Made by a program: the position numbers and the translations under genes. Of a stretch of DNA of 22,626 nt, positions 1,170 through 19,559 are shown piece by piece. Where the stretch lies: IMG/VR virus record IMGVR_UViG_3300035703_000425, positions 1-22,626 of that record. One strand, written 5' to 3'. The stretch's first letter is position 1, and each line of letters opens with the position of its first letter. The notes below the pieces were generated by a model. The model did no database searches and was not told the DNA's origin. It saw only the letters and a list, made by a program, of their open reading frames with translations. The DNA comes from a virus.

Positions 1170-1919
1170 TTAGAGATCGTCGGTCCAGCTCTCATTTGTT
1201 ATCGTTACAGTTCCTGGGTCACCTTCTGCGGTATAAATTCTTGTCGCCTTTTGGAATTCTGGATCTTCACCGACGTTAGCAAATACAGTATCAATAACTC
1301 CAGTATTGGAGAGACCACCATATAAATTTAATTTTAATGTAAAATTGAGAGTATGGGTTACGAACCTACGAGTTTGAAAGTCGCCTTCGTAGTCATCCTG
1401 CACTGCCACGCTATTTAAAATTACAGGAACATCCTGCACTATGTTCATAGCTGGAACAGAATTAATCATTAGCGTATAATCTGGTGTAAAGGTTGGAAGA
1501 ATTTGCTCGATAATTTGCAAACCATCTTCCTGAGTTTTTGTTAAAACATAAAGAGCAATGTCAATGTTATAAGGGACTGGTGTGAACAAACTTTTCATAG
1601 TATCTTGGCTCGCATCAATGCAACGAACTTTATTCATTCTATTTGCTTTGCGCGCAGCATCATAATTATATCCAGTAATCTCGAAGGACAATCTTGGTAA
1701 TGTGGTATAAGTATTATTCTGTAAGTTTGGATCTGAATCTATTCTAACTATCCACTTTTCTTTTGGTGCATATGCTAGTGGAACTTGTAAACGCTGTATC
1801 GTTTGTCCACTTACAGAATCATCTTTTTTTCTATCGATGTAAATGTTACTAAAAAGACTACCGAAAGCAACGATAGTGCTTCTAATAATTCCGTGATAAA
1901 ATACTTTTCCGTCTAACAT
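1170..1919 (-). CDS. 15: Tail sheath stabiliser / tail terminator (gp15-like)
   Basis: The 249-residue product resembles T4 gp15 (272 aa as I recall), which forms a hexameric ring on top of the finished tail and docks it to the neck. Recognisable blocks are LFSNIYIDRK (22-31), VPLAYAPKEKW (46-56), LPRLSFEITGYNYDAARKAN (74-93) and an IIEQILPTFTPDY stretch (136-148), in the order and spacing expected for the family. The C-terminal 50 residues are less conserved. The start codon shares one base with the stop of the upstream 221-aa gene (TAATG), which suggests translational coupling. Its position directly after the neck genes and directly before gp17 matches T4 late gene order, except that no small terminase gene lies between. 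Confidence 0.92.
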   Translation of the reverse strand: MLDGKVFYHGIIRSTIVAFGSLFSNIYIDRKKDDSVSGQTIQRLQVPLAYAPKEKWIVRIDSDPNLQNNTYTTLPRLSFEITGYNYDAARKANRMNKVRCIDASQDTMKSLFTPVPYNIDIALYVLTKTQEDGLQIIEQILPTFTPDYTLMINSVPAMNIVQDVPVILNSVAVQDDYEGDFQTRRFVTHTLNFTLKLNLYGGLSNTGVIDTVFANVGEDPEFQKATRIYTAEGDPGTVTITNESWTDDL

Positions 1920-2584
1920 TACTTGAGTTCTTCAATAACGCAGTAAGCATCGCCTGCTGTTCCGACCGCTGGCATATTTCTTGCTATTACTGTTACTCTG
2001 TAAATTTTATGGAAACTAGCATCAGCGAGAACAAAGGTTAAAGTGTCGCCAACCGTAGCCAAATTTTGCACTAATTGATAGTTTGTATTATTCGCATTAA
2101 CAACTGCAGCGCCAGATAAAACATTTCCTGGATTTGGAGAAACTCTATATACACTGATCGATACATTATTAGATGGATTGCTATAATTATACTGTACATC
2201 TAATGTGCTGTTGTTATCTACAATCTTTATAGTAAGATTATCTCTAGTGGCATTTTGTTGTCCGACAACTATCGTAGCAGAACCACCATGTGTATTAGTA
2301 TCAGTTTCTGGAATAGTTGGTTTATTTGTTAGGTCATTATAAGAACCAGAAAACAGTGTTGGCTTATTTGTTAGATCTGCGTAAGAACCACTAAATGGAA
2401 CTGCCCATGACAGAATAGCTCCGTCTGTGGTTAGGTATCTTGCATTATTTCCAGTCTGCGAAGGAATTAAACCAGCATTGTATATCTCGGTAAAGTTCGC
2501 ATTTGTTTTAGTAAATGCAGTGCGGAGCGGATCACCTGTTCCGTCATTTGCTGCAGTTCCAATGTTAATAGTTTGTTTAGCCAT
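1919..2584 (-). CDS. Fibre-like virion protein inserted between gp14 and gp15
   Basis: The 221-residue product opens with a motif seen at the N-terminus of many phage virion and fibre proteins (INIGTAANDGTGDPLRTAF, about 6-24), probably a trimerisation or attachment segment. Two direct repeats of the fibre-shaft motif SYxDLTNKP follow at about residues 67-75 and 81-89. The rest, from about 97 on, is a beta-rich domain rich in Asn, Thr and Val, with no enzymatic motif. It starts one base after the gp14 stop and overlaps the gp15 start by one base, so it is embedded in the neck-gene operon. A collar, whisker or neck-associated fibre is a reasonable guess from position. The exact role is unknown, and a short side tail fibre is the main alternative. 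Confidence 0.75.
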   Translation of the reverse strand: MAKQTINIGTAANDGTGDPLRTAFTKTNANFTEIYNAGLIPSQTGNNARYLTTDGAILSWAVPFSGSYADLTNKPTLFSGSYNDLTNKPTIPETDTNTHGGSATIVVGQQNATRDNLTIKIVDNNSTLDVQYNYSNPSNNVSISVYRVSPNPGNVLSGAAVVNANNTNYQLVQNLATVGDTLTFVLADASFHKIYRVTVIARNMPAVGTAGDAYCVIEELK

Positions 2585-3319: not shown

Positions 3320-4285
3320 TTATCCTAAGAAGAACTCAAGTGGAGCAGACTTGGTCATTAACTCATCTTCAAGTTCTTTAATTTCTGTAGTTGCTTCGTC
3401 GTATAATTTATCACCATCAAGTGTTACGCCACCTGGTAATTGAATGCCTGAAAACTTTTTAAGATTTGTTCCCCACTGCTTTTTAAACTTTGCAGTTACG
3501 TAATGTTTGAGCCAGAGTTCATCCCATACTTTGGAATACTCTGCTGGGTCTAGTGCACGATAGCACTCAACAACAATAAAGTCGCCAAGCGCAACATCAG
3601 ACTCCCAGTTAACATCTAAGAATAATTTGTTCTGACGACGATTAAATCTAAATTGTGGGTGACCATTTAACTCTAAGTCTAGCAGAGCCAAATGCGACAT
3701 AACTGTTTTGTAGTAAATGATCGATGTGGATGTCAGATCGTAAAGATCGTTCAAACGCAACTGATATTGCAGATCAAATAGATTTTTTGAAGACGATGCT
3801 TGGCTGAATGGAAGAATACGAACCACGCCATAAACTGCATCTGGAATATCAATGTATCTTTTATCGTATGCGCCCAGTGTAACTGCTGGTGTTCCAAGAG
3901 TTGCAGTTACGTTACTGTTTGCACCACGAATTGTTTCGCCGACAGCGAATGTTCCAGTTACGTTTTTAACCAGAAGTGTGTTGCCAGAAGAAGTGCGGCT
4001 AGTTTCTTTTACACAAGTAGCAGTAGCACCAGAAGTTAATCCTGTTACTATTTCAGGAACTGCAAAATTCTGTGCGTTGTTTGTTGTAAGTTTAAGTTCA
4101 GAAGCACTAATCAAATGCTTCATGTAAACTTTCTCAATACCATCTGGATGATACAGTCTCCAATACTCTAAAGATTCGTCAATACGATCTTCTAACTGAG
4201 TATCATCTACGTTAATCTCAAGAACAGGTTTACCTAGTTCTCTGAGACAGTACTGTTTTAGTTGTTCTCTTGTTGTTACTGGCAT
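3320..4285 (-). CDS. 13: Neck protein (gp13-like) with an internal beta-rich insertion
   Basis: The 321-residue product resembles T4 gp13 (309 aa), the head-completion protein that works with gp14. The N-terminal helix-rich block (residues 1-60, with LKQYCLRELGKP and DRIDESLEYW) and the C-terminal block (about 190-321, with LALLDLELNGHPQFRFN, RALDPAEYSKVWDELWLKHY and FKKQWGTNLKKF) look like the conserved core. Residues about 77-138 differ in character: they are Thr/Gly/Val-rich with TSGATAT, then NVTGTF and GETIRG, a composition typical of small beta modules in phage decoration and fibre proteins. I read this as an insertion. An AAAGGA ribosome site and an AATAAATA late-promoter box precede the gene, so it probably heads a transcript through gp14, the 221-aa gene, gp15 and gp17. 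Confidence 0.92.
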   Translation of the reverse strand: MPVTTREQLKQYCLRELGKPVLEINVDDTQLEDRIDESLEYWRLYHPDGIEKVYMKHLISASELKLTTNNAQNFAVPEIVTGLTSGATATCVKETSRTSSGNTLLVKNVTGTFAVGETIRGANSNVTATLGTPAVTLGAYDKRYIDIPDAVYGVVRILPFSQASSSKNLFDLQYQLRLNDLYDLTSTSIIYYKTVMSHLALLDLELNGHPQFRFNRRQNKLFLDVNWESDVALGDFIVVECYRALDPAEYSKVWDELWLKHYVTAKFKKQWGTNLKKFSGIQLPGGVTLDGDKLYDEATTEIKELEDELMTKSAPLEFFLG

Positions 4286-4312: not shown

Positions 4313-4370
4313 CTGCTATTATTTTAGGATATTTTTCTGTAGCCTATTCGCGTTTGACATCTATATTCCT

Positions 4371-5063
4371 TTAGAAGAACCAAACCTGCTTCTTAGTTAC
4401 AGGCACTCCATTATAATCATACAACTGACTTCCTGGACCAGTTACAAATGACGTATTTGGATACTGTGAAAATCCGTTTGTTATATTTAATATATTATTT
4501 TCTGACTGAATCAACAACTCGCCTCTAACTTGAGCCTGGAAATACAATAATGTTGCATTTACGTCATTAAGCCAAGTAGCATTGATGTAGTTATTATCTA
4601 CATCTACATAAATTATATCTCTATTCTCATTGTATATTATTTCTGGAGACACTACCTGATAGTCTAATCCATCAAACCCCAGTTCTTCACCTATCATCAT
4701 ATATGTATCTGTTCGTTTTCTGGGTATATCTTGTACTAAGTCTATAAAAAGGAAACCAGAAACTGTTGCACTATTTGGTTCATAGTTTAAGGAATCACTC
4801 AACTCATACGTATTAAGATCTGCAGTTATCATTAGATCAGTATAGTAATTATAATAAATGTCTGGCGAATATACACTTATAGAAAGTAGACCCATATCTG
4901 GAGTAGTGACAGCATTTGCAAAATTAAAATCTAGTTCGTCTTCAATTGTATTGTCTCGTCCAAAAATAAAAACATCACCATGGAAAACATCCATGTTATC
5001 GTCCATAGTGAGGCTGCCCTCACTAATTTCAAAATTTAGGTCTACTGAATAAGGATAGTACAT
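4371..5063 (-). CDS. Unknown protein, probable virion component, aromatic C-terminus
   Basis: I do not recognise this 230-residue protein. It is acidic and rich in Asp, Asn, Tyr and Ile, has no signal peptide or membrane segment, and shows no catalytic motif. The composition suggests a beta-rich structural protein. It ends in KKQVWFF, an exposed aromatic tail that could serve as a contact or assembly point. The start lies two bases after the stop of the 735-aa adhesin-like gene, so it is probably co-translated with it and may be a partner protein. The equivalent position in the neighbouring cassette is held by the 208-aa gene at 8257-8883, which does not look similar in sequence but also ends in an aromatic stretch (AFWS). 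Confidence 0.7.
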   Translation of the reverse strand: MYYPYSVDLNFEISEGSLTMDDNMDVFHGDVFIFGRDNTIEDELDFNFANAVTTPDMGLLSISVYSPDIYYNYYTDLMITADLNTYELSDSLNYEPNSATVSGFLFIDLVQDIPRKRTDTYMMIGEELGFDGLDYQVVSPEIIYNENRDIIYVDVDNNYINATWLNDVNATLLYFQAQVRGELLIQSENNILNITNGFSQYPNTSFVTGPGSQLYDYNGVPVTKKQVWFF

Positions 5064-5064
5064 T

Positions 5065-7272
5065 TTATGAACTAATTACAGAACCTATAATTTTGCCACC
5101 ATTAGCACCTACTACTCTAATTGCAACGCTAGTATCCGCGCTGGCTGAAGTGGTAATAGTTTTAGAAACTGTTCCATCAGAAAATTGAAGTCCTGGCAAC
5201 CCTGTAGTGCTAATAATGCTTAATGCTACACTCTTTGCTACTCTATTTCCAAGATAATCATACACATTAACATTAATTGTGGAGTTAATTGTAGTTCCTT
5301 GGTAAGTAAACGAAGTTGCTCCAGGTGTAGTAATACTTACTGTTTGCGCTACATCTGCTGTAATAACATCGATATAATTACCAAAACAATCATTAGTTAC
5401 TGCAACATCAGTATCAAATACCTGAGTACACCATCTACCATCTTTATCTTTAAATAGACGGGCAGCATTGTAAGACATTAACGAACGTAACTGATATAAT
5501 CCACTAGTTTCATTTAATGAGAAGATAGCATCAAAGTTTGTAGAAGAGCCGACATATAACTGTCTCCAGTTTGTATCCATTGGGCAGAAATATCTTGGAG
5601 TCCATGTTGCAGTTTCAAATTTACCCAAGTATGTAGCAGTTGAAGTTCCATCATTCAATGTCCAGCTATAAACAACAAACATAGAACCAGCTCCACCCTG
5701 CGAAGAAAATCCATTCGCAGCAGTAATATATCCACCAGCATTAGTATTGTAAATACCTAGATGCAGACGCTTGACGCTATTGCTATCGATACTATACCAT
5801 ATACGGTTTGCAGTAGATCTTCTGTGATTTGAATTGTTAAATGTTGAGTTTGCAGTAGCATTATGACCCATAGCAGCATAAAACTCTTGGGCTTGTTGCG
5901 TGGTCATTGTATTTGTATACAAAGTTTGCGTATCTACTTGAGTAGATAAATTAATATTAGTTCTGTAAATATTAATGCCTTGTGCTGCTGCGTCTGCGCC
6001 AGTAAATGACATCATATAATAACGATAGTTAGATTCATCATCTAAATCTGGCTGCGAAGGAACTACAATACCACTTACACCTTTTTTATAATTTTCTAAT
6101 ACAGTTGTAGTTGAAGTGCCAAAATTAACGACTTTAAGTGATAATCGATCTACGTTATCTACGCTGGTATCAACACCTTGAATTCCACCATTGCCTGAAT
6201 TGTGATGCAAATAATAAAGATGATTAGCTGTTCGTTTAATAAAAATACGAACGCCATAATCAAATGTTCCTACATTGTGAGCGTGACTAGGATATCCACC
6301 ATGAATAAATTCTGTTCTATTATTGTTGTTGCTAATTGGACTTCCTATTGTAACTGCAAATTTAGTATTTACACCACTCCCATATATTTCGCTGTCTAGT
6401 CGTTGAACTGTAGTATTTTCTACTGTTCCATGTCTTAGTGCGTTTTGAAATCCTACTTGGGTCGATGCAGCAAAATTTGCAGTGTTAGTAGCAGGATATG
6501 CATATCCAGAGGTGGTGCCAGCGGTAAAATTATTAGTAACTGAATACGTATAAGTAGAACTTAAAGTATTTCCATAAAGAGCCTCATTATATGAATTAGT
6601 ATAAATGGCAGAAGTTGAGTTATTATTAGCTGTTGCATATCCACCAACCCTCATCAGAGTTTTAGGATAAAAATATGTATATGTTCCAGATGGGGATTCT
6701 ACAGGAATGAATTGATTCCACGCAGATTCAGAAGATAATATAGGTTTAACAGTTCCACCACTAATTGTTGTTGTAGTCAGAGAAACTGATGAATCTCCGC
6801 CAGAAACACCACCTGTTGTTGCCTCTCCAGTTGTTGAATTTACAACCGATACGTTACTTGGAACAACACACAGATTCTTAAAGAACCAATTACCATATGA
6901 ATTTTTTTGGGTACCATAAGAATAGAATGTATTTAAATTATACTCTGCAGACCATCTACTACCTAACAAATCATAGTTGTTTCCAACATGAGAAGGTTCA
7001 AAAATTTGTTGTGCAGCAATAATTCCAATATATTTGGATCCTAGCGGTACAACACTATTATCTTGACTGCTACCAGCAGTTATATTTAATGCAGATGAAG
7101 CAGCGACAGTGTCATAAACAGGATTCATTGAAATAGCATTAGGTACTGCATTTCCTGTCGTCGCGTCAAATCTCTGACCATTAAACACAAAGTTTGTTCC
7201 TTTGTATCCATAGTAAATAATCTGATCTTTTGTTAGAAGATTACCTAGTTTTCTGTTGTAAAATTTTGCCAT
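5065..7272 (-). CDS. Large adhesin-like virion protein with Ig-like C-terminal domain (cassette copy B)
   Basis: The 735-residue product is rich in Asn, Ser, Thr and aromatic residues and looks like an extracellular virion protein. The N-terminus (KFYNRKLGNLL) may be an attachment segment. The centre contains many short beta-type segments with Trp/Tyr, compatible with a beta-propeller or beta-solenoid, but I cannot assign a family. Residues about 641-735 form an Ig-like domain of the bacterial type (FTYQG, then VNVYDYLGNRVAKS, then TTSASADTSVAI). Several blocks match the 571-aa protein at 8883-10598: FYAAMGHN versus FYASMGYD, the TPRYF and MPRNF region, and the Ig domain. The two are therefore paralogues. 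A ribosome site AGGA precedes the start. Receptor or surface-glycan binding is inference. Confidence 0.8.
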   Translation of the reverse strand: MAKFYNRKLGNLLTKDQIIYYGYKGTNFVFNGQRFDATTGNAVPNAISMNPVYDTVAASSALNITAGSSQDNSVVPLGSKYIGIIAAQQIFEPSHVGNNYDLLGSRWSAEYNLNTFYSYGTQKNSYGNWFFKNLCVVPSNVSVVNSTTGEATTGGVSGGDSSVSLTTTTISGGTVKPILSSESAWNQFIPVESPSGTYTYFYPKTLMRVGGYATANNNSTSAIYTNSYNEALYGNTLSSTYTYSVTNNFTAGTTSGYAYPATNTANFAASTQVGFQNALRHGTVENTTVQRLDSEIYGSGVNTKFAVTIGSPISNNNNRTEFIHGGYPSHAHNVGTFDYGVRIFIKRTANHLYYLHHNSGNGGIQGVDTSVDNVDRLSLKVVNFGTSTTTVLENYKKGVSGIVVPSQPDLDDESNYRYYMMSFTGADAAAQGINIYRTNINLSTQVDTQTLYTNTMTTQQAQEFYAAMGHNATANSTFNNSNHRRSTANRIWYSIDSNSVKRLHLGIYNTNAGGYITAANGFSSQGGAGSMFVVYSWTLNDGTSTATYLGKFETATWTPRYFCPMDTNWRQLYVGSSTNFDAIFSLNETSGLYQLRSLMSYNAARLFKDKDGRWCTQVFDTDVAVTNDCFGNYIDVITADVAQTVSITTPGATSFTYQGTTINSTINVNVYDYLGNRVAKSVALSIISTTGLPGLQFSDGTVSKTITTSASADTSVAIRVVGANGGKIIGSVISS

Positions 7273-7276
7273 TTTA

Positions 7277-7513
7277 TTATTCCTGTGGAGTTATGTCTTC
7301 TGCTGGGACATCAACTATTTGATCTTCGTCAACTGGTTGATTATTTTCTGGTAAAAATTGTGGGTATGCGCTACCTAACCATTGCAATGCTTCTTGCTCA
7401 TTAGCCCATTCTGCTTTGCTATTAAATGGATTAAATGGTTGATGTAAAACAACAGAATTAGTTTCTGAATCAACCACTTGAATTATTTTATTCTGGAATG
7501 TAAACTGATACAT
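7277..7513 (-). CDS. Small HQPF/WANE-motif protein (cassette copy B)
   Basis: This 78-residue protein carries HQPFNPF at 24-30 and EWANEQEALQW at 35-45, followed by an acidic Gln/Asp/Glu-rich tail. The 63-aa protein at 10600-10791 has the same pair of motifs at the same spacing (HQPFKP, then AWANEAEALAWW), and both sit directly upstream of a large adhesin-like gene. I do not know a characterised function. A dedicated folding or assembly helper for the following adhesin is a plausible inference from size, acidity and gene order. A small virion protein is the alternative. The gene has a clear GGAG ribosome site, lies 11 bases after the preceding gene and 4 bases before the next one. Confidence 0.75.
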   Translation of the reverse strand: MYQFTFQNKIIQVVDSETNSVVLHQPFNPFNSKAEWANEQEALQWLGSAYPQFLPENNQPVDEDQIVDVPAEDITPQE

Positions 7514-7524
7514 TTTATTCTCCG

Positions 7525-8241
7525 TTACGTTGCTGTATATAAAAATGATACATAAAGATCTTGTGCTCCAATACCATCGTTTAACACGTCTACAGTTATA
7601 TAATCATTAGCGCCTACGCTTATGTCTGTATTATTTTCTACAGGAATTGTGTTTCCAATAGTTAGTTGGTATTGTGATACGCCATTTTTTGACACAGCAA
7701 CAATAACTGATGTTTGACCAGCAGTCAATAATCTTGCTATGCACTTATCAATTGTAATGTTTTGAACAGGATACCAGCGTGTTGAAGAATTGGTAGAAAC
7801 TGTTCCCTGTAAATAACTTGTAGCTACTCTTTGTCCACCCCCTCCAGTGCTTTGTGCAGCTATAGTTATAGTATCATTAGCTGCATCAGTAGTAATTGTA
7901 ACATTCGAACCAGCCACCAAAGTTAACGTATCGCTAGTGTTATCAGCGATTACACTAGACTGTCCAGATACTGCAATACTACTAAATGTATTTGCTGTTG
8001 CATTACCAGAAATAGTAATTGTATCAGTAGTAGAATTGGTAGTTAGAGTTATCCCAGTTCCAGCCACCAAAGTTAACGTATCATTTGTACCGTCAGCAAC
8101 TACATTAGATTGTCCGTCTATTGTTATAGTAGAAAAAGAATTGCCTCCTGCACCTAAAACAGTAATTCCAGAAAGTTCTGTATTGGCAGTATCGTAAGTT
8201 ATATCTCTGGCGAATTTTGCTAGTTCTTTTGCGTTTGACAT
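7525..8241 (-). CDS. Fibre protein with two internal repeats and RWYP-type C-terminal domain (cassette copy B)
   Basis: The 238-residue product has a short N-terminal region (NAKELAKFARDI), then two roughly 50-residue tandem repeats (about 36-85 and 86-134), each with FS.I...GQS.V.AD, DTLTLVAG and DTITI blocks. A glycine run (about 133-136) leads into a C-terminal domain at about 141-238. This domain has RWYP (155-158), NITIDKCIAR, a VAVSKNG stretch and ANDYITVDV, a beta-sandwich-like tip found at the ends of many phage fibres. The same domain ends the 229-aa protein at 10803-11492. The repeats suggest a shaft with a binding or trimerising tip. An AAGGA ribosome site precedes the start. Confidence 0.8.
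   Translation of the reverse strand: MSNAKELAKFARDITYDTANTELSGITVLGAGGNSFSTITIDGQSNVVADGTNDTLTLVAGTGITLTTNSTTDTITISGNATANTFSSIAVSGQSSVIADNTSDTLTLVAGSNVTITTDAANDTITIAAQSTGGGGQRVATSYLQGTVSTNSSTRWYPVQNITIDKCIARLLTAGQTSVIVAVSKNGVSQYQLTIGNTIPVENNTDISVGANDYITVDVLNDGIGAQDLYVSFLYTAT
7910..8082 (-). repeat. Pair of 23-bp exact direct repeats 150 bp apart
   Basis: Bases 7910-7932 and 8060-8082 are identical over 23 positions. They encode the TLTLVAG part of the two tandem protein repeats in the 238-aa fibre gene. The flanking sequence is diverged, so the repeat may be kept by protein constraint or by recent unequal recombination. Confidence 0.85.
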
Positions 8242-8256
8242 TCTATTCCTTGATCT

Positions 8257-8883
8257 TTAACTCCAGAATGCGGTAACACCAGTTCCACCACCACCGCCTC
8301 CTCCACCGCCACCACCACCGCCTCCACCACCAGTACCACCTGTGAGTGCACTGTCAGTTAATTTATTAACTTCTACGACTGTAGTGGAGAGTATTCGTGG
8401 AATAATGAATGTTTGATTCCTACTAACTGCAACAGGTATAACTACAGGTGATACAGACTCTAATGCAACTACTTTAAATACAGTCGTAGTAAATTTGGTT
8501 CGTAGAAGATTATTTTGTAAACCGTATGTTATTCCACCTTCATAAACTGGAACTAGTGTTCTATATACAGTTGTCACTGAGTTATTAGTTTCTACTTGCG
8601 CAACAGTAGTATTTTCTACATTATATACAGCTCTAGTTCCTGTTAAATTATCATTAGTATTTACTAAAGTTTCCTCTAACAAAAAATTAGAAAAATTAGA
8701 ACCTGGTGGTGTTCCGTTATTAACTTGAACTACTGATAATACACTGTCCTGTATTGGCGACGCATTTGCAAACCGACCAGAATTATATAATTTTAATGGT
8801 GGTTTGATGTCAACAGTTGAAGCAGTTTTTACCTCAACTGTTGCCGTTGTAGGTCTTGCAAATAAAGAACTTTCTAATGCCAT
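8257..8883 (-). CDS. Unknown virion-type protein ending in a 16-glycine run
   Basis: I do not recognise this 208-residue protein. It begins MALESSLFARP, followed by about 170 residues rich in Val, Thr and Asn that look beta-forming. After residue about 178 comes a linker containing sixteen consecutive glycines, then TGVTAFWS at the C-terminus. A flexible or polyglycine-II arm bearing a short aromatic tip is a reasonable reading. The start codon shares one base with the stop of the 571-aa gene (TAATG), so the two are coupled. Unlike the large glycine-rich proteins further upstream in the transcript, glycine is confined to the end here. It takes the same position in its cassette as the 230-aa gene does in the other. 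Confidence 0.75.
   Translation of the reverse strand: MALESSLFARPTTATVEVKTASTVDIKPPLKLYNSGRFANASPIQDSVLSVVQVNNGTPPGSNFSNFLLEETLVNTNDNLTGTRAVYNVENTTVAQVETNNSVTTVYRTLVPVYEGGITYGLQNNLLRTKFTTTVFKVVALESVSPVVIPVAVSRNQTFIIPRILSTTVVEVNKLTDSALTGGTGGGGGGGGGGGGGGGGTGVTAFWS
8284..8331 (-). repeat. GGN triplet tract encoding sixteen glycines
   Basis: Sixteen uninterrupted glycine codons (GGT, GGA and GGC only, no GGG) form a near-perfect triplet repeat of the type prone to in-frame slippage. It would read as CCN repeats on the plus strand. Confidence 0.9.
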
Positions 8884-10598
8884 TAGAAGTTTACACTTGC
8901 TACAATATTGTTAACACCGCCACCGCTAATAGTTAAGTTTACTGTAGTGTCAGCGCTTGCGCTAGTACTAACTGTAAGATTTTTACTACTATTTGATGTA
9001 AATAACATACTGCTACCATCAATCGTCAAATTAATGCTTGCTACCACTCGCGCACCAGTGCTGTCATATGCATTTACGGCAGCAGTCGTAGCAATATTTG
9101 AACCAGTATACGTGTAGTTAGCAGCAGCCATTACAACTGTTACTGTTATTGGAGTGCTGGGAGTTATAGCGTGTATTGTTGCAAATCCTTTTTCTCTACT
9201 AGTTCCCCACAATCTATTTGTTGAATCTAATCCCAATTGACGGAACTCAGCTGCATAAGATCCTGTTTGCTCCCATCCAGTTGAAGGATTAAATGAGTAG
9301 AATCTGGTAGCGCCTGCAATAGGAACAACTACATGAGTTCCTTCAGAATTAATTGCCATAAAGTTTCTTGGCATCGCATTAACACCAGGGAATGTAACTT
9401 TACTGTGATATGTCAAAACATCATCACCAGTACCTGAACCAATTGTAAATGTGAGCATTGATCGTTTCTTATCAGTACTCCATCTAGAAGCAGAAGAACC
9501 AAAAGTAGAAGCCATATCGCATATCCAAAAAGTTATATAATTTACACCACCAGTTGTAAATTGATATCCTTTTGAAAAATAACTATTATTGCTAGAAGCA
9601 GCAGCACCTTCCAATGAGTATCTTTCTGCATAAGTAGCGTATGTGTCAGTGCCAGGATATGTCATTGTACAGTTTGTAGCTGTTACGGTTCCAGCGGCAG
9701 CATCAAATACATATCTAATTGGAGCAAAAACTCCACTAGCATCCCAATGAGTACCATAAAACACACGGCGATCTGCAGTAGCTCTACGAATATTACTTGG
9801 AAGACCTCTTCGATAGTTTTCGTTTAAACTGCGATAACTATTTGTAATAACTTGCGTTCCAGTTGTAGAAGTTGGATTATATTTGTAAACCTGATAATAA
9901 TTATAAAGATTGGTTCCTGTACCAACCCAAACATAATATGGCCAACCAGCATTGTCTACACCCAAAAAGAAGTTTTCATATCCAGCTGTATTTGATATCC
10001 AACTATTATATCCAGTTAATCCTGTTTCATATGATGTCCAAGCTGAAATTCTGTTATTATTAGCATTACTTCTAACAATACCCCACATTCTATTATTAGT
10101 TACATCTTCATAGAACATATGAGAAGGATGATAACTCCAGTTACTCCAATAAAATGCTTGATCAGTTTCTGCATTTGCTCCAGTTATATAATGTAAGTTA
10201 TAACCATTATCACCTGCATTAACACCACCATCACCATAAGCAGCTATGTAAATATGCCTTCCGTTAACTGTTCTCCATGTTCTTTTCGCTGGATAATTAG
10301 TTAAATCTAAACTATTATGATAGGTGTCATATCCCATAGAAGCATAAAATTGACTATCTGCATTAGACCAACATTGAATAGTGCTTTTTGATAAAGTTAA
10401 AACTGCCCAGTCATTTTGAGTACTTGTTCCTGTATATGCATCATTATAAGTCCAATGCCAACCAACCATCCACGCAGGTGCTAATGTTGTTTTATCATAG
10501 GCTTGTGTATTAATAAAAATTCTGTTTTTGTTTGGATTTGCATCTTCAACAACAGTTAGGTATGTATTAGCGATTCTATTTACGGCGATTTCAGGCAT
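8883..10598 (-). CDS. Large adhesin-like virion protein with Ig-like C-terminal domain (cassette copy A)
   Basis: The 571-residue product is Trp/Tyr/Asn-rich with many short beta segments (for example HIYIAAYGDGG, MFYEDVTNNRMWGIV and GVDNAGWPYYVWVG) spaced in a way that recalls beta-propeller blades. A C-terminal Ig-like domain occupies about residues 484-571 (YTYTGSNIAT, then VNAYDSTGARVVAS, then STSASADTTVNL). These features and the FYASMGYD block match the 735-aa protein, so this is a paralogue that is shorter in its N-terminal half. The opening PEIAVNRIANTYLTVVED may be the attachment segment. A strong GGAGG ribosome site precedes the start. Binding to a host surface ligand is inferred from composition and from the fibre-gene setting. 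Confidence 0.8.
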   Translation of the reverse strand: MPEIAVNRIANTYLTVVEDANPNKNRIFINTQAYDKTTLAPAWMVGWHWTYNDAYTGTSTQNDWAVLTLSKSTIQCWSNADSQFYASMGYDTYHNSLDLTNYPAKRTWRTVNGRHIYIAAYGDGGVNAGDNGYNLHYITGANAETDQAFYWSNWSYHPSHMFYEDVTNNRMWGIVRSNANNNRISAWTSYETGLTGYNSWISNTAGYENFFLGVDNAGWPYYVWVGTGTNLYNYYQVYKYNPTSTTGTQVITNSYRSLNENYRRGLPSNIRRATADRRVFYGTHWDASGVFAPIRYVFDAAAGTVTATNCTMTYPGTDTYATYAERYSLEGAAASSNNSYFSKGYQFTTGGVNYITFWICDMASTFGSSASRWSTDKKRSMLTFTIGSGTGDDVLTYHSKVTFPGVNAMPRNFMAINSEGTHVVVPIAGATRFYSFNPSTGWEQTGSYAAEFRQLGLDSTNRLWGTSREKGFATIHAITPSTPITVTVVMAAANYTYTGSNIATTAAVNAYDSTGARVVASINLTIDGSSMLFTSNSSKNLTVSTSASADTTVNLTISGGGVNNIVASVNF

Positions 10599-10599
10599 T

Positions 10600-10791
10600 T
10601 TATTCTCCCTCCACAGGAGTGGTTTCTACTGGTTTATTTTCTTCCCACCAAGCAAGTGCTTCCGCTTCATTCGCCCATGCTTCTTGAGTTCCGTCGTTTG
10701 TAGGTTTAAATGGTTGATGTATAAAATGTCTATCACCCAGATAAACATCTAAAACACCATCACTAAAAACTACCTCATATTCTTCGTTCAT
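10600..10791 (-). CDS. Small HQPF/WANE-motif protein (cassette copy A)
   Basis: This 63-residue protein has IHQPFKP at 24-30 and AWANEAEALAWW at 38-49, followed by an acidic tail ending in EGE. It is the counterpart of the 78-aa protein at 7277-7513 in motif, size and place: 11 bases after an RWYP-type fibre gene, and here one base before its adhesin-like gene. An AAAGGA ribosome site supports the ATG at 10791. No characterised function is known to me. An assembly helper for the downstream adhesin is one inference; a minor virion protein is another. Confidence 0.75.
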   Translation of the reverse strand: MNEEYEVVFSDGVLDVYLGDRHFIHQPFKPTNDGTQEAWANEAEALAWWEENKPVETTPVEGE

Positions 10792-10802
10792 TTGAATTTC
10801 CT

Positions 10803-11492
10803 TTATGCTCTTGTATAATTTAGGGTTACTGTTAAATCAGATCCTGCAACGCTGCTACCTATTTGAGTAACCCCTATAGTTACATAATAACTGTAGTTTA
10901 CACCGATAGATGTGCTAACTAAAAGAGAAGCGTAAGTGCTATCATCAATCGTAACTGATTGAACAGCACTTCCATTGACTTTGATTGCTACAACTATTGC
11001 AGAACCTATTGGCGCAGTTGTAACTCTGGCAACTACTGATTTAATATTTACGTTTGTTCCTGGATACCATCTAACTCCAGCATCGCCAACAGTTAGCGTC
11101 CCTGTCTGAGTATATTGTTTTTCAAAAGTTAGTTGGTCATTGATCCAGTTTCCTGCATCATATTTTAGTATTTGACCAGAAGCTGGAGATGTAATTACAA
11201 CGTCGCCAATATTGTCTATATTGCTAACTGTTGTGGAATCTGTTCCATTAACCCAGTTAGTTCCGTTGTATTTTAATACCTGACCATTTGCGGGGGAAGT
11301 GAGGACAACATTTCCAATATCATCAATGCTGGCTATGCTGGTGTTGGTTATTTGACTACCATCGCCAACGATTGTTGTCGCATTGATTGTTGTTGCATTG
11401 ATTGTGGCTCCTGTGATAGTTCCACCAATCGTTGCATCTTGTCCGACTATAAGACCTCGCTTGACGCGAAAGTCTTTTTCTGTTGTTGCCAT
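10803..11492 (-). CDS. Fibre protein with IGNV/KYNG repeats and RWYP-type C-terminal domain (cassette copy A)
   Basis: The 229-residue product begins with KDFRVKRGLIVGQDATIGG (6-24), an N-terminal motif that I associate with fibre proteins of marine T4-like phages. A Thr/Ile-rich stretch (TINATTINATTI) suggests a triple beta-helix shaft. Two direct repeats follow at about 56-83 and 92-119, each reading ID.IG.VV.TSPA.GQ.LKY...NW. The C-terminal domain at about 130-229 carries RWYP (141-144), NVNIKSVVAR, a VAIKVNG stretch and SDLTVTLNYT, and is homologous to the end of the 238-aa protein. It heads cassette copy A. Confidence 0.82.
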   Translation of the reverse strand: MATTEKDFRVKRGLIVGQDATIGGTITGATINATTINATTIVGDGSQITNTSIASIDDIGNVVLTSPANGQVLKYNGTNWVNGTDSTTVSNIDNIGDVVITSPASGQILKYDAGNWINDQLTFEKQYTQTGTLTVGDAGVRWYPGTNVNIKSVVARVTTAPIGSAIVVAIKVNGSAVQSVTIDDSTYASLLVSTSIGVNYSYYVTIGVTQIGSSVAGSDLTVTLNYTRA

Positions 11493-11524: not shown

Positions 11525-11905
11525 CTACTGAGGTTCTACTTGATCCCAAGAAGTTGTTGATTCATTCCAAGTATATCTTTCACCATCGTTTGGATATGGA
11601 GTTGGTGCTTCCCACAAGCAGGATGTTTCATTCAGAACCCAAGACTCAAATGGCTTTGGTGGAATAAATGCATCTCTTTGTGCATCGTAAGTGTAACCAA
11701 TTCCTGCATAGTTTTTACGCAGTGCCTTAGTCTGATCTTCGGATGGATCATTAGAGTTTGCCTGATAATGAACACCACCACGAGTGTTGTAAGAAGTTTG
11801 TATCCACTCTCCTGGGGAAGTGTCTACGAATGTTTCAAAGAATTCTGGTTCTGCCACAATGACTTGTGTAACAGTACCACTAACTACTTTCGCAAAATGT
11901 GCCAT
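11525..11905 (-). CDS. Small conserved marine-phage protein, probable virion component
   Basis: The 126-residue product contains MAHFAKV at the start, WIQTSYNTRGGVHYQ (34-48), NYAGIGYTYDAQRDAFIPPK (65-84), a SWVLNE segment near 88-93 and a Trp-rich C-terminus (YTWNESTTSWDQV). From memory, near-identical blocks occur in hypothetical proteins of many marine cyanophages and SAR11 phages, often near fibre genes. No biochemical function is known to me. It has its own AGGAG ribosome site and a late-promoter-like box immediately upstream, so it may start a transcript that continues into the duplicated cassettes. It shows no similarity to the HQPF/WANE proteins beyond being Trp-rich. Confidence 0.8.
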   Translation of the reverse strand: MAHFAKVVSGTVTQVIVAEPEFFETFVDTSPGEWIQTSYNTRGGVHYQANSNDPSEDQTKALRKNYAGIGYTYDAQRDAFIPPKPFESWVLNETSCLWEAPTPYPNDGERYTWNESTTSWDQVEPQ

Positions 11906-11927: not shown

Positions 11928-11935
11928 TATTTATT
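11928..11935 (-). promoter_or_regulatory. Late-promoter-like box before the 126-aa gene
   Basis: The minus strand reads AATAAATA here, close to the T4 late consensus. The predicted start near 11922 leaves about 17 bases of leader with the AGGAG ribosome site. The box overlaps the TAA stop of the upstream glycine-rich gene (stop at 11934-11936). Confidence 0.55.
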
Positions 11936-12911
11936 ACGCTGTAAATGTTCCTGATGATGTAAATGTGTGGTAAGTGTACCCGTCAGATGATGTAACAGTT
12001 CCACCTGCACCTCTTTGAATTCCCTGATAACGAATAATAATTATACCAGATCCACCAGTTCCACCCTGAGAAGATGGGTCAGAACTTCCTTGCCCAGATC
12101 CACCGCCTCCGCCTCCAGTATTTGCAGTTCCATTACTTGCAATAGAACCTCCAGCTGTAGAACCTTTTCCATTTCCACCTCCACCAGCTCCACCAGTTCC
12201 AAAAGCTGCGGTTGGATTTGATCCGCCACCACCACCACCTGCATATGTAACTCCATTCAACCACTGATAGCCTGCTCCACCATTACCTGGAGAACCTGAG
12301 GTAGCATTGGCACCTACTGCGCTAGCTCCACCACCTCCACCAGAGTTATATGATGGATTTCCTATAGAGCTTCCACCAGCAAATCCTTGTCCTGTTGTGC
12401 CTGCTGCACCAGAACTGTTTGAATCTCCTGTTCCTCCTCCACCACCAGAACCACCAGAAAGTGCAACGTGTTGATATCCACCACCACGCCCACCACCTAT
12501 AGCAGTTAAAGTAAATCCAGTACTATTTGAACCACTAGCGCCAGTAGTAGTAACTGTTCCACTAGCTGTAGTTCTCCATCCAACACCACCAGCGCCAATA
12601 ACTAAACTAAAAGAATCAACAGTCGAGGAAACTGTTCTGGTTCCATATAAGAGTCCACCAGCTCCTCCTCCACCACCTGTCCAGCTTCCGCCACCACCTC
12701 CACCAGCAACAATTAAATAGTCAATTGAATATGTTTGTGATGCTAATGTTGTCCATCCTGTTCCGATATATACTTCTAAAGCATTGTTAGTTGTGTTCCA
12801 AATAATTGTTCCGTTTGTTGGACTCGCTGGACGCGATGCAACAATATTAATTAACCCCTGCGAAGAGGGTAATTGAGTAATTCCGTTTGTTCCGTCTATA
12901 GTTACTGGCAT
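11934..12911 (-). CDS. Glycine-rich tail-fibre/adhesin protein
   Basis: The 325-residue product starts with PVTIDGTNGITQLP, a marine-phage fibre-type N-terminus. A linker module follows (ASRPASPTNGTIIWNTTNNA at 25-44, continuing LEVYIGTGW) that recurs in neighbouring genes. A glycine-rich domain begins with IDYLIVAGGGGGG (about 63-75) and ends with GSGIIIIRY (about 288-296). Its many GGGGG blocks separated by 10-20 residues are the pattern that can form packed polyglycine-II helices, as in the adhesin tips of some T4-like enterophages. The last 22 residues (GTVTSSDGYTYHTFTSSGTF plus two) are a shared closing module. Receptor binding is inferred. No clear ribosome site is visible; the upstream gene ends one base before the start, so coupling is likely. 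Confidence 0.85.
   Translation of the reverse strand: MPVTIDGTNGITQLPSSQGLINIVASRPASPTNGTIIWNTTNNALEVYIGTGWTTLASQTYSIDYLIVAGGGGGGSWTGGGGGAGGLLYGTRTVSSTVDSFSLVIGAGGVGWRTTASGTVTTTGASGSNSTGFTLTAIGGGRGGGYQHVALSGGSGGGGGTGDSNSSGAAGTTGQGFAGGSSIGNPSYNSGGGGGASAVGANATSGSPGNGGAGYQWLNGVTYAGGGGGGSNPTAAFGTGGAGGGGNGKGSTAGGSIASNGTANTGGGGGGSGQGSSDPSSQGGTGGSGIIIIRYQGIQRGAGGTVTSSDGYTYHTFTSSGTFTA
12796..12824 (-). repeat. 29-bp exact repeat shared with 14881-14909
   Basis: Twenty-nine bases are identical to 14881-14909. They encode part of the SPTNGTIIWNT linker module in the 325-aa gene. Such a patch lies at the junction between anchor and glycine-rich domain and could act as a homologous recombination point between fibre genes. 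Confidence 0.9.
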
Positions 12912-12912
12912 T

Positions 12913-14013
12913 TTAATTTATTAAGTATCTTAGTATTACTATTCCTGAGCCACCAGCGCCACTCGTTGACTGGTAACTTGCATTTGTTTCTCCAGATCCA
13001 CCACCTCCACCACCAGTGTTTGCTCCAGCATTACCACCTTTACCGTTGGTGCTACTTGTGTTGCCATTTAGACCTGGATTTCTACCTTGAGTATTTCCTA
13101 ATCCTGGTCCAACATATCCTGATGCTGCACCACCAGCACCACCTCCTCCACCTGCTCCTCCATTACCACCACCTGTAGCGCCAGTCCAACCAGAACCACC
13201 ACCACCGCCAGCATAATAGAAATTGTTACCGTCTATGTTTGATTGTATTCCTGCACCGCCAGCTGCTCCTGTAGATGTTCCATTTGCCCCTACTGCTGCT
13301 GCACCACCACCTCCTCCAGCGAATACATTCGTTGCTGTTCCACCAGCAAAACCTTGTCCTGTTGTTCCAGCACCTCCTGCACCAGATCCATATCCGCCAC
13401 CGCCACCTGAACCACCAGAATTTCCTGCTCCTTGCCCTTCTCCACCACCTGCTCCACCACCAATTGCAGTTAATCCAAAAACAGTTGTGTTTGATCCGTT
13501 GTTCCCTCTACCAGTTCCCTCTGTTCCTGTAGTTGAAGCGCCACCTGCACCAATAACTACTGCATATTCATTTACGGATGGAGTGAATGTTCCAGTTAAA
13601 ACTCCACCCCCACCACCTCCACCTGCAATATCATCGCCACCAGATCCACCACCTGCGACGATTAAGTATTCGACAGAAGTATTACCTCCAACAGGAATGC
13701 CTGTTACAGAAAATGTTCCTGATGCTAAAAATGTATGAATTCTATAGTTACCAGATGTTGTTATTGTTCCACCTGTTGCTTGAATGCCAGTTAAACTTTG
13801 AATAGTTATCCAGTTATTACTATAATACATTTCCAATACATTTAATGTAGTATTGACACCAAATGTTCCATCACTTGGAGTTGCTGGTCTGTTTGCAGTC
13901 GTCCACGAAGGCATAACAACACCATTTGGTGCAACGATTTGAAACTTACCAGATGTGTCTGCCTCGACACTAAATCCAGTTTGAACTGTTGTTCCTGTTG
14001 TTATCGTGGTCAT
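12913..14013 (-). CDS. Glycine-rich tail-fibre/adhesin protein with closing module placed first
   Basis: The 366-residue product has an N-terminal region unlike its neighbours (TTITTGTTVQTGFSVEADTS), then the linker module (TANRPATPSDGTFGVNTTLN, about 39-58). At about 80-104 comes the TGGTITTSGNYRIHTFLASG block with TF, the module that closes most other genes in the array; here it stands before the glycine-rich domain. That domain starts at SVEYLIVAGGG (about 113) and runs to GSGIVILRYLIN at the very end, so nothing follows it. The start overlaps the stop of the upstream gene by four bases (ATGA). A probable adhesin; ligand unknown. Confidence 0.85.
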   Translation of the reverse strand: MTTITTGTTVQTGFSVEADTSGKFQIVAPNGVVMPSWTTANRPATPSDGTFGVNTTLNVLEMYYSNNWITIQSLTGIQATGGTITTSGNYRIHTFLASGTFSVTGIPVGGNTSVEYLIVAGGGSGGDDIAGGGGGGGVLTGTFTPSVNEYAVVIGAGGASTTGTEGTGRGNNGSNTTVFGLTAIGGGAGGGEGQGAGNSGGSGGGGGYGSGAGGAGTTGQGFAGGTATNVFAGGGGGAAAVGANGTSTGAAGGAGIQSNIDGNNFYYAGGGGGSGWTGATGGGNGGAGGGGGAGGAASGYVGPGLGNTQGRNPGLNGNTSSTNGKGGNAGANTGGGGGGSGETNASYQSTSGAGGSGIVILRYLIN

Positions 14014-15056
14014 GATGTGAATGTTCCAGATGATGTGAATGTGTGGTAAGTATATCCACCTACAGATGTTACTGTGCCACCTGTACCTTTTTGTGATCCA
14101 GTATAACGGATTACTACAGTACCTGAGCCTCCATTTCCACCACTACCTTCAAATGCTCCAGTATTTGTATATCCACCTCCACCACCTCCACCACCAGTGT
14201 TGGAAGTTCCATTAGTTGCATTTCCGCCAGTTCCCCCAGCACCGCCACCACCAGTACCACCCGCTGCACCTGTTCCACCACTAGGGTTACGAGCACCACC
14301 ACCTCCACCACCAGCATAATAATTACCAACACCAGCTGGCCATTGGTAACCTGCTCCACCTGCACCTGGCGATCCACTAGAGGCATTGGCGCCTACACCT
14401 CCTGCACCACCTCCACCTGCACCAGAATTGTTGTTACTTCCAGATGTTCCTCCTGCAAAATTTCCTGCTCCTGCAGCAAGACCTGTGCCGCCGCCACCAG
14501 CCTGTCCACCGCCATGACCACCGCCACCACCCGAAGCGTTTGCATTATAACCACCGCCAGCGCCACCGCCATTTGCAGTTACGGTAAATGTTAATGGTAT
14601 TACTATTGAAGATGCGGTACCAGAAACACCTGCAGGATAACTTCCATTTTGTCCATCATAAGCTCCATTACCACCAGCACCAACTGTTATGGTAAATGCT
14701 GTATTTGCTGCAACTGAAGTTCTTGTTCCTGTTTTAACCTCTCCTCCACCACCACCGCCACCGATAGTTTCGCCACCACCGCCACCACCACCAACTAAAA
14801 AATATTCAATATCATAAATTTGTGATGCTAATGTTATCCAAGATAAACCTGTCCAAACTTCCAGTACATTACTAGTAGTATTCCAAATAATTGTTCCGTT
14901 TGTTGGACTACCTGGTCTAGATGCAACTGATGGTATACCAAGAGATAAATCTCCGCTAGTAGCAGGCAGTGTAATTACAGTGTTTCCTGCAACAGCAGGT
15001 GCTTGTAAAGTTATGGTACCAGATGTCGAACCAGCGAGGACAACTTTACCGCTCAT
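14010..15056 (-). CDS. Glycine-rich tail-fibre/adhesin protein
   Basis: I place the start at the ATG at 15056, giving 348 residues. It overlaps the TGA of the 81-aa gene as ATGA, and the protein then opens with SGKVVLAGSTSGTITLQAPA, a fibre N-terminus that is common in phages. A second ATG at 15068 would add four residues and lies inside the upstream gene. Residues about 44-77 hold the linker module (ASRPGSPTNGTIIWNTTSN, then LEVWTGLSW). The glycine-rich domain begins IEYFLVGGGGGGG and ends near GSGTVVIRY. The last residues are the closing module GTVTSVGGYTYHTFTSSGTF. One linker patch is identical in DNA to the 325-aa gene over 29 bases. A probable receptor-binding tip. Confidence 0.85.
   Translation of the reverse strand: MSGKVVLAGSTSGTITLQAPAVAGNTVITLPATSGDLSLGIPSVASRPGSPTNGTIIWNTTSNVLEVWTGLSWITLASQIYDIEYFLVGGGGGGGETIGGGGGGGEVKTGTRTSVAANTAFTITVGAGGNGAYDGQNGSYPAGVSGTASSIVIPLTFTVTANGGGAGGGYNANASGGGGGHGGGQAGGGGTGLAAGAGNFAGGTSGSNNNSGAGGGGAGGVGANASSGSPGAGGAGYQWPAGVGNYYAGGGGGGARNPSGGTGAAGGTGGGGAGGTGGNATNGTSNTGGGGGGGGYTNTGAFEGSGGNGGSGTVVIRYTGSQKGTGGTVTSVGGYTYHTFTSSGTFTS
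14881..14909 (-). repeat. 29-bp exact repeat shared with 12796-12824
   Basis: This is the second copy of the identical patch, in the linker module of the 348-aa glycine-rich gene. The copies are 2085 bp apart in direct orientation. Confidence 0.9.
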
Positions 15057-15298
15057 AGAACAACCCATCTACTTGTTGCTGGAATAGTGACAGTTACACC
15101 AGCAGCAACAGTTATTGGACCAGTAGAAGTTAATCCTTGATTTTCTTCTATGGTTACGTTTGAAGATATTGTTTTATTGTTTTTTAGTATGACACTACTT
15201 GTATCGGCATAACTACCACCTCCACCTGCCTCTTGTGTAAGAGTTCCAGTAGTGGTAGTGTTTTTTGCTAGTTTGCTAAGGTTACGTGTTCTGCTCAT
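15053..15298 (-). CDS. Small fibre-like protein
   Basis: The 81-residue product starts SRTRNLSKLAKNTTTTGTL, has a short GGGGSYADTS linker, then KNNKTISSNVTIEENQGLTS, GPITVAAGVTVTIP and ends SRWVVL. The C-terminal half resembles a beta-rich module that I associate with the C-terminal ends of longer marine-phage fibre proteins, so this may be a stand-alone or split piece of a fibre. The stop overlaps the start of the 348-aa glycine-rich gene (ATGA), so the two products are probably made in step and may work together as base and tip. An AATAAATA box lies immediately upstream. Confidence 0.75.
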   Translation of the reverse strand: MSRTRNLSKLAKNTTTTGTLTQEAGGGGSYADTSSVILKNNKTISSNVTIEENQGLTSTGPITVAAGVTVTIPATSRWVVL

Positions 15299-15303
15299 AG
15301 TTA

Positions 15304-15311
15304 TATTTATT
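15304..15311 (-). promoter_or_regulatory. Late-promoter-like box overlapping a stop codon
   Basis: The minus strand reads AATAAATA and includes the TAA stop of the 362-aa gene. With T4 late-promoter spacing, transcription would start at or next to the ATG of the 81-aa gene at 15298, which would leave no leader. It may therefore be weak, or serve later genes. Confidence 0.4.
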
Positions 15312-16395
15312 GGGTTGTAAATGTCCCTGCTGACGTGAAGGTATGGTAAGTATATCCACCTGACGAAGTTACTGTTCCACCTGCTGCTCTTTGACTACCA
15401 AGATAACGAATAATTAAAACACCTTGTGTTCCTGCTCCCCCGACACCACCAGCATTGCCATAAGATCCTCGCAGTGCATTTGAATTATCTGCTGCCAAGT
15501 TTCCAACTGCAGCTGTTAAAACTCCTGAAATAACCGAAGTGTGTAAATATCCTGAGCCACCACCTCCACCTGCCATAGTATTAGCTTCTGAATAGCCACC
15601 ACCGCCACCACCAAAATAACCGCCACCACCTCCACCACCGTATGCGTAAGAGGCAGCATTACCACCTTGTAATGCGCTACCTGCAGATCCACCACCTAAA
15701 CCACCAGCTCCTCCAGCAGATTGTGTCCCACCTCCACCACCATATAATGGTTTATTATCATATGGAGAGTATCCTATTTCTCCATTTGCACCACCGCCAC
15801 CACCACCAGCATTTCCTGTTCCTGCTCTTGATGCTCCGCCACCACCACCACCACCAGCTATAATTCTTGCAGTTGCCTGCGAAATTGTTGTACCTAAAAA
15901 TATTCCAGTATAACCACCACCTCCGCCACCGTATCTATTATCAGTGGTGCTTGGCATCGTACCACCACCCCCAAGAGCACCAGTATTTGAATTGACAAGA
16001 CCACCACCGCCAATAACTACTGAGTAGATTATTCCTGATGTAGCTCCTATACTTCCTGTTGCTGCTCCACCAGCACCACCTGGAGCACCGTATGTCCATC
16101 CACCAGCAGTTCCACCAGCACCTCCACCGCCCCATGCAAATACTTCAAATTCAAAAGGTCCCATAGCAAGAGTTACCCAGTTCAATCCAACCCATACCTC
16201 TAAAGTATTTAGAGTTGTATTCCAGATAGTAGTTCCTGCAGTAGGATTTGCTGGTCTATTCGCTACTGATTCAATACCACCACCAAGTTCAACTGTTGAA
16301 CTTATTTTAGATTGTGTTATTGCATTATTAGCAATACTATTCTCTGTCACTGCATTATTGGCAATAACATTAGATGTAATTTTAGTGAGTGCCAT
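15307..16395 (-). CDS. Glycine-rich tail-fibre/adhesin protein (MALT-type anchor)
   Basis: The 362-residue product starts with ALTKITSNVIANNAVTENSI, an anchor shared with the next two genes of the array (each begins MALT and reaches VELGG). The linker module follows (VANRPANPTAGTTIWNTTLN, about 44-63, then LEVWVGLNW). The glycine-rich domain starts FEFEVFAWGGGGAGG (about 81-95) and contains long GGGGGG blocks, including GGGGGGGYFGGGGGG. It ends near GVLIIRYLGSQRAAG, and the closing module GGYTYHTFTSAGTFTTQ is C-terminal. The shared anchor suggests that all MALT proteins attach to the same virion partner while their tips differ. The upstream gene stops two bases before the ATG. Confidence 0.85.
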   Translation of the reverse strand: MALTKITSNVIANNAVTENSIANNAITQSKISSTVELGGGIESVANRPANPTAGTTIWNTTLNTLEVWVGLNWVTLAMGPFEFEVFAWGGGGAGGTAGGWTYGAPGGAGGAATGSIGATSGIIYSVVIGGGGLVNSNTGALGGGGTMPSTTDNRYGGGGGGYTGIFLGTTISQATARIIAGGGGGGGASRAGTGNAGGGGGGANGEIGYSPYDNKPLYGGGGGTQSAGGAGGLGGGSAGSALQGGNAASYAYGGGGGGGYFGGGGGGYSEANTMAGGGGGSGYLHTSVISGVLTAAVGNLAADNSNALRGSYGNAGGVGGAGTQGVLIIRYLGSQRAAGGTVTSSGGYTYHTFTSAGTFTTQ

Positions 16396-16402
16396 ATTTA
16401 TC
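16395..16402 (-). promoter_or_regulatory. Weak late-promoter-like box at the 362-aa gene start
   Basis: The minus strand reads GATAAATA, and its last A is the first base of the ATG. It also contains the TAA stop of the 1051-aa gene. A promoter here could not produce an intact transcript of the adjacent gene, so the match may be chance. Confidence 0.2.
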
Positions 16403-19553: not shown

Positions 19554-19559
19554 TTTAGT

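Follow-up and report, generated by a model that had tools for sequence, protein, structure and literature searches.

In the T4 gp37–gp38 pair, and in the lambda and Mu pairs, a distal fiber gene is followed by a small gene whose product is needed for, or sits on, the fiber tip, and Mu and P1 have two alternative fiber sets. The Alteromonas phages A5, V22, and P24 have exchanged host-recognition modules composed of a tail fiber and a chaperone, the partner being a protein of 176–239 amino acids (aa) that contains DUF4376 in A5 and V22 (PMC10579305), and domain mosaicism has been described for phage receptor-binding proteins (PMC10684548). Propellers are found in several such proteins: the Staphylococcus aureus phi11 receptor-binding protein, PRD1 P2, and phiKZ gp131C (PMC4901313). 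Here we compare these systems with a fiber locus in IMG/VR record IMGVR_UViG_3300035703_000425, which was analyzed over its entire 22,626 bases (hereafter the window). We consider it reasonably probable that a three-gene cassette for host recognition is present in this locus in two divergent versions, and that this cassette travels as one unit between T4-like phages of aquatic habitats. No description of the three-gene unit was found in the open-access papers searched. The Alteromonas fiber-plus-chaperone modules (PMC10579305) are, together with receptor-binding-protein mosaicism in general (PMC10684548), the nearest systems described; the unit differs from both in its partner family, in its separate adhesin of predicted propeller type, and in its double stacking.

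The two cassettes, A and B, are adjacent. An initial annotation of the window had placed two blocks with the same order of gene types at 11492–8257 and 8241–4371, all on the minus strand, and both the coordinates and the order are correct. The genes of the two cassettes are as follows.

10803–11492, minus strand: A1, 229-aa short fiber with an N-terminal anchor (MATxxKDFRVKxGL), a repeat shaft, and an RWYP-type C-terminal head (open reading frame, ORF)
10600–10791, minus strand: A2, 63-aa HQPF...WANE small acidic protein, isoelectric point (pI) 4.1, putative fiber/adhesin assembly partner (ORF, family alignment)
8883–10598, minus strand: A3, 571-aa adhesin with a predicted β-propeller body and a C-terminal immunoglobulin (Ig)-like domain (ORF, homologs, low-confidence AlphaFold2 model)
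8257–8883, minus strand: A4, 208-aa fourth-slot protein with a poly-Gly tail ending TAFWS (ORF overlapping the A3 stop)
7525–8241, minus strand: B1, 238-aa short fiber with the N-terminal anchor MSNAKELAKFARDITY, two shaft repeats of ~44 aa, and an RWYP head (ORF)
7277–7513, minus strand: B2, 78-aa HQPF...WANE small acidic protein, pI 4.05 (ORF, similarity to A2)
5065–7272, minus strand: B3, 735-aa adhesin that has only the C-terminal Ig-like domain in common with A3 (BLAST, profiles)
4371–5063, minus strand: B4, 230-aa fourth-slot protein of cassette B (91% identical in the sister contig L003, beside cassette B)

By homology, gene 1 encodes a short fiber, because its anchor and shaft match PHROG tail-fiber and baseplate-wedge/fiber-connector families; the matches of the A1 anchor and shaft are to tail fibers. 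Pairwise scores between the cassettes were compared with those of 300 shuffles and are given as z. The first three genes had been described as recognizably paralogous pairs, and significant similarity by BLAST and shuffling bears this out for the A1 and B1 heads, for A2 and B2, and for the C-termini of A3 and B3. The similarity of A1 and B1 is confined to their C-terminal ~100 residues (32% identity, BLAST E 5e-8, z = 12), and their N-terminal anchors are unrelated (z = 0.5). A2 and B2 are similar across most of their length (42% identity, BLAST E 4e-9, z = 13). A3 and B3 align only in the C-terminal Ig-like stretch (37% identity over 99 aa, E 3e-10), and the z of 8 for the whole proteins is due entirely to the last ~100 residues; without them it is 1.1. 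The FYA(A/S)MG block that had been thought common to the two adhesins is thus at chance level, and it is absent from the nearest relatives of A3. Before the C-terminal domain we detected no similarity between the two bodies, either pairwise or with a hidden Markov model (HMM) of four A-type adhesins searched against pre-Ig B3. An SNxRR motif (hhalign E 0.054 between the A-type and B3 bodies) may be the sole trace of a common origin there. Between A4 and B4 there is no relationship, as proposed (z = 2.6, under the best shuffle).

The head, small protein, and adhesin form a genuine unit. Six cassettes on five contigs (A and B in the window, and one each in L003, G001, G002, and G003) have the same order of head fiber, small protein, and adhesin, although the G003 contig ends just inside the adhesin gene. 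A small protein with a confident HMM score (E < 1e-10) always lies between the head-domain fiber gene and the adhesin, and the fiber and partner genes are adjacent and conserved together in these distinct phages. L003, which is one sister contig with L004, was reached by searches with B3 and B4; G001 (70.9 kb, locus L030) by a degenerate DNA pattern for HQPF...WA; and G002 (91.6 kb) and G003 (24.5 kb) by a WxxExEALxW pattern filtered with the small-protein and head HMMs. Most loci returned by the first HQPF pattern were discarded as chance matches. In L003 and G002 the trio occupies the same fiber locus as in the window, with gp13-gp14-gp15-terL downstream of it in all three, and in G002 the gp13-gp14-gp15 order directly follows the cassette. 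It is very improbable that independent fiber genes simply came to align twice by chance; the locus is full of paralogous fiber genes and the head domain also occurs alone, but the same three families recur in the same order in four further contigs. The solitary head ends a 676-aa fiber of the Alteromonas podophage R22Y and is followed there by other genes, so the RWYP-type head, whose homologs to A1 are found in B1, L003, G001, G002, G003, and R22Y, is a general head domain that the cassette uses. Independent occurrence of the gene types, which would speak against a unit, is thus seen in part, for the head.

The functional unit of four genes proposed in the initial annotation is therefore upheld for the fiber, helper, and adhesin, and not for the fourth gene. 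The occupant of the fourth slot varies: 208 aa in A, 230 aa in B and L003, a fiber of >2,880 aa in G001, and 488 aa in G002. A4 and the G002 protein, which is Gly-rich and ends TAYWS, have marginal C-terminal similarity (z = 4.5), and a loose tie of such proteins with A-type cassettes is possible. Nor does the equal 11-base gap between genes 1 and 2 characterize the unit. L003 also has 11 bases there, but G001 has 0, G002 has 21, and G003 has 14.

The locus had also been read as a unit duplicated and then diverged. As a local event, in which the whole block was doubled within this lineage and one of the two copies then diverged fast, with the likeness of A to cassettes elsewhere reflecting its slower change, this seems unlikely to us. 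The blocks are adjacent, agree in order and strand, and contain three paralogous pairs; the adhesin has been duplicated in G002; and approximately unbiased (AU) tests leave an A+B clade unrejected (p 0.10–0.18). Cassette A is, however, nearer to those of G001 and G002 than to cassette B. The identity of A2 is 68% with the small protein of G001 and 42% with B2; for the A1 head the corresponding values are 42% with G001 and 32% with B1; and A3 has full-length homologs in G001 (49%) and in G002 (two copies, 39–40%), although its pre-Ig part has no similarity to B3. The unrelated anchors also argue against local copying, as does the near sister L003, which has cassette B only, with its gene 1 fused to the A1 N-terminus. 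Between the two blocks we found no DNA-level similarity besides a 22-nt match across the HQPF codons, and a recent duplication is therefore rejected. We posit that A and B are probably old alleles stacked in one operon, and that the A-type/B-type split is probably older than the divergence of these phages, because A is nearer to the cassettes of other phages than to B; an old duplication is possible. The unit is more general than could be seen from the window, and it is older and more mosaic than a tandem duplication. In G002 (L089 7028–11293), a single head and a single small protein are followed by a pair of neighboring A3-type adhesin genes, both full-length (754 and 653 aa, with 46% identity to each other), which is a real tandem duplication of the adhesin alone.

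Comparison of the window with the sister contig locates the points at which cassettes are exchanged. By blastn, the window is 89% identical to L004 from terL to the start of gp13 and 75–86% identical across most of cassette B, and the window proteins that flank the cassettes are 88–98% identical in amino acids to their L004 counterparts. The following segments define the exchange.

7845–11411, minus strand: segment of ~3.57 kb absent from L003, with the A1 shaft and head, A2, A3, A4, and the B1 anchor and shaft (blastn breakpoints against L004)
11411–11492, minus strand: A1 anchor-coding segment, common to the sole RWYP fiber gene of L003 (blastn)
8144–8251, minus strand: ribosome-binding region of B1 and the segment that encodes its anchor, with homology to the beginning of the 915-aa fiber gene of L003 (blastn, L004 4613–4505, 91.7%)
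4319–4360, minus strand: deletion scar, a 13-codon remnant (MSNANRLQKNILK and a stop) of a fiber gene whose intact form (915 aa) occupies the same position in L003 (sequence comparison, translation)

Both borders of the extra segment fall within gene 1 of a cassette. L003 carries cassette B only, and its sole RWYP gene changes at a Gly-rich linker from the A1 anchor to the B1 head: window 11411–12060 matches L004 957–303 (81%, blastn), the N-termini of A1 and the L003 protein are 74% identical in amino acids, and the B1 head is 93% identical to the L003 head. The anchor MSNAKELAKFARDITY instead starts the 915-aa Gly-rich fiber behind B4 in L003, with 88% identity over 33 aa. Because gene 1 of L003 consists of the A1 N-terminus and the B1 head, cassettes appear to swap at the anchor/head junction of gene 1. 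The scar lies between B4 and gp13 and keeps the start codon and first codons of the 915-aa fiber gene (blastn break 4347/4312). In the simplest history, the ancestor would have had both cassettes and the 915-aa fiber; L003 would then have lost A when two fiber genes recombined, and the window phage would have lost the last fiber. Gain of A in the window lineage is equally compatible with the two genomes. Switching by an invertase and inverted repeats was considered and rejected: both cassettes are on the same strand, there are no long flanking inverted repeats, only repeats of 20–22 nt (80–82%) inside a cassette, and no invertase is present among the major ORFs of the window, itself a fragment.

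An AlphaFold model of A3, built from two sequences, has a mean predicted local distance difference test (pLDDT) score of 44.6, with a better part at residues ~210–450 that contains recurring short strands. Among the 50 Protein Data Bank (PDB) matches listed by Foldseek, the recognized ones are nearly all propeller-containing proteins, and VIA-align matches the model to propellers with Z up to 14.7 over ~280 residues. Its best matches in BFVD come from an uncultured phage (one protein) and from the Ralstonia jumbo phage RP12 (two adhesin-like proteins). A phmmer search of the PDB gave no match for A3, hence no sequence homology to a solved propeller adhesin. Based on the structural matches, we find it likely that A-type adhesins have a β-propeller body, a fold that is supported but uncertain. 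A3 would then resemble the phi11 receptor-binding protein, PRD1 P2, and phiKZ gp131C in having a propeller domain, though no sequence similarity to them was found; the phi11 protein is one polypeptide with a stem and a tower, whereas here the fiber and the putative propeller are encoded by separate genes and the adhesin ends in an Ig-like domain. We regard as improbable the alternative in which the A3-type adhesin does not bind in the manner of a lectin but degrades surface glycans, as a propeller of the sialidase or GH43 kind, which would make the cassette a depolymerase unit. Sialidases and GH43 enzymes are among the propellers matched by the A3 model, and phage endosialidases are propellers (PMC4901313), but non-enzymatic propellers score as high or higher, so that the structural match does not discriminate, and no sequence match to any enzyme family was found in Pfam, PHROG, or the PDB.

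The B-type adhesin is homologous over its full length in L003, and its divergence is uneven. Identity to L003 is 28–74% at residues 51–350 (window 6223–7122) and 76–100% elsewhere, reaching 94–100% at residues 1–50 and 551–735. This is the pattern expected of a variable surface-binding part on a conserved mount, with which it is consistent without being proof. Weak phmmer matches of B3 to T-cell receptor chains in the PDB were rejected as composition or Ig noise. We hypothesize that the gene 3 adhesin probably binds the cell surface.

The small proteins are 57–81 aa long across the family alignment, with a core of ~45 aa followed by an acidic, poorly conserved tail of very variable length, and the pI was 4.05–4.35 in all four checked. 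B2 is 72% identical to its L003 homolog. The small proteins of A, B, L003, and G001 have no Pfam match, including to DUF4376 or any other known fiber-chaperone domain, and in PHROG they have weak matches only, to families without an assigned function. As judged from its position and size, the small protein probably helps the fiber–adhesin pair to assemble, as a chaperone or an adaptor. The more specific alternative that it is a structural adaptor, kept in the virion between the fiber head and the adhesin and not a chaperone, is a lesser though substantial possibility: its gene lies exactly between the fiber and adhesin genes in six of six cassettes, but the widely varying length and poor conservation of the acidic tail suit a transient helper as well. 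In the siphophage-like contig G004 (L091 163–1314), the gene for a propeller-like protein of 279 aa precedes one for a protein of 100 aa that weakly matches the HQPF/WANE family (QPHAP...WATEAEALDW); given the weak match and the lack of a head domain, G004 was not counted as a further cassette.

Together, these observations suggest how the cassette might work. Gene 1 would be a short trimeric fiber whose exchangeable N-terminal anchor attaches to the baseplate or to another fiber and whose shaft ends in a small β-rich head, the RWYP domain. The large adhesin of gene 3, which at least in A-type cassettes would consist of a β-propeller and an Ig-like domain behind it, would probably be carried on the fiber head through its conserved C-terminal domain and would probably bind the cell surface; the tiny acidic product of gene 2 would probably assist this pair, and the fourth slot would vary. 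Recombination in the gene 1 anchor and shaft would add, remove, or exchange whole cassettes while a compatible anchor is kept. In this scheme the window phage would carry two adhesin specificities in one operon and its sister one. As the initial annotation had supposed, it is a reasonable inference that the two cassettes are two host-recognition devices. Related phages have one version of the cassette or a shuffled one, which suggests that the exchange and stacking of entire cassettes is probably how these phages alter or broaden their host recognition.

Several points weigh against the proposal of a mobile host-recognition cassette. The A3 model is weak and that of B3 is unusable (pLDDT 27), so a fold common to the two adhesins outside the Ig-like part is unproven. 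The AU tests, on trees built from short domains, do not reject an A+B clade for the head, the small protein, or the adhesin C-terminus (p 0.10, 0.13, and 0.18). The small protein has no recognizable chaperone homolog. The six cassettes are all from uncultured phages, and none was found in the cultured-phage collection, in which searches with A3, B3, A2, B2, the G001 small protein and adhesin, and the A3 C-terminus gave no credible relatives; scans of viral contigs with A3, A4, and an alignment of three small proteins, and of bacterial genomes with the A-type adhesin, gave no match.

With these points in mind, the cassette can be set beside the described systems. As in the A5, V22, and P24 modules, a fiber gene is followed by a small partner gene, the two are exchanged between otherwise unlike phages, and the conserved C-terminal part of the fiber goes with its partner. 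The partner here is, however, acidic, shorter (57–81 aa), and without a DUF4376 or Tfa match, and the unit includes a separate large adhesin gene and can be stacked twice in a genome. The T4 gp37–gp38, lambda, and Mu pairs are alike in their distal fiber and small downstream gene and have no sequence family in common with the cassette; unlike in Mu and P1, there is no inversion system, both cassettes having one orientation in one operon. The gene 1 anchor and head recombine independently, as in the mosaicism of receptor-binding proteins (PMC10684548), but here two to three more entire genes, located behind the head, are exchanged along with it. More tentatively, and with somewhat less than even confidence, we speculate that the cassette could represent a modular receptor-recognition platform of T4-like phages, composed of a universal short-fiber head, a new family of acidic assembly proteins of ~60–80 aa, and plug-in β-propeller/Ig adhesins, with cassettes stacked or dropped at the anchor to give several independent receptor specificities per virion. 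Genome sequences seldom reveal the host range of the T4-like phages that dominate aquatic habitats, because the fiber loci are long strings of unnamed genes. The three-gene unit can be recognized by WxxExEALxW, a short motif that follows a head of the RWYP type, and its exchange points are now mapped, which offers a handle to find adhesins, compare them across close phages, and test which of them sets the host; the small proteins are a compact new candidate family of fiber assembly proteins.

The surroundings of the cassettes are those of a T4-like tail and neck gene locus. The left end of the window is a T4-like block composed of terL, a gp15-like tail sheath stabilizer, a short fiber, and gp14-like and gp13-like neck proteins. 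The gp13, gp14, gp15, and terL genes match PHROG 211, 460/679, 227, and terminase families and adjoin the fiber genes, in the same order as in L003 and G002. Cassettes A and B are the gp13-proximal part of a fiber locus that extends from 4.37 kb to the right end of the window, all of it tail-fiber-like and on the minus strand. The flank on the gp13 side is as follows.

3320–4285, minus strand: gp13-like neck protein, conserved flank of the locus, followed by gp14, a fiber, gp15, and terL (PHROG matches)

The closest cultured match of the gp14-like protein is in Methylophilales phage Melnitz (48.5% over 195 aa). The 221-aa fiber between the gp14-like and gp15-like genes (window 1919–2584) has an N-terminus of the T4 gp9/10 type (Pfam PF07880, E 2e-6). 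The T4 late-promoter core TATAAATA occurs 0 times in the whole window versus 2.5 expected, and ATAAATA is found just 5′ of gp13 in the window and in L003.

On the other side of the cassettes, window 11934–22626 is an array of Gly-rich and LamG fiber genes with DNA-level paralogy among its members and a common C-terminal YTYHTFTSSGTFT motif; the array is apparently actively expanding. The neighborhood of the G003 cassette is similar, with a LamG/IPT fiber and a Gly-rich fiber followed by a PHROG-7759-type protein. In the window, the 126-aa PHROG-7759 protein (11525–11905) lies directly behind the Gly-rich fiber gene at 11934–12911. A Gly-rich fiber gene followed by a PHROG-7759 protein is also found in Roseobacter phages CRP-143 and CRP-207, a Manatee Spring podophage, HTVC025P, and Bellamy, and twice in Melnitz; in L003 the protein comes behind a Gly-rich frame. 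The two genes constitute a second recurring fiber-plus-partner pair.

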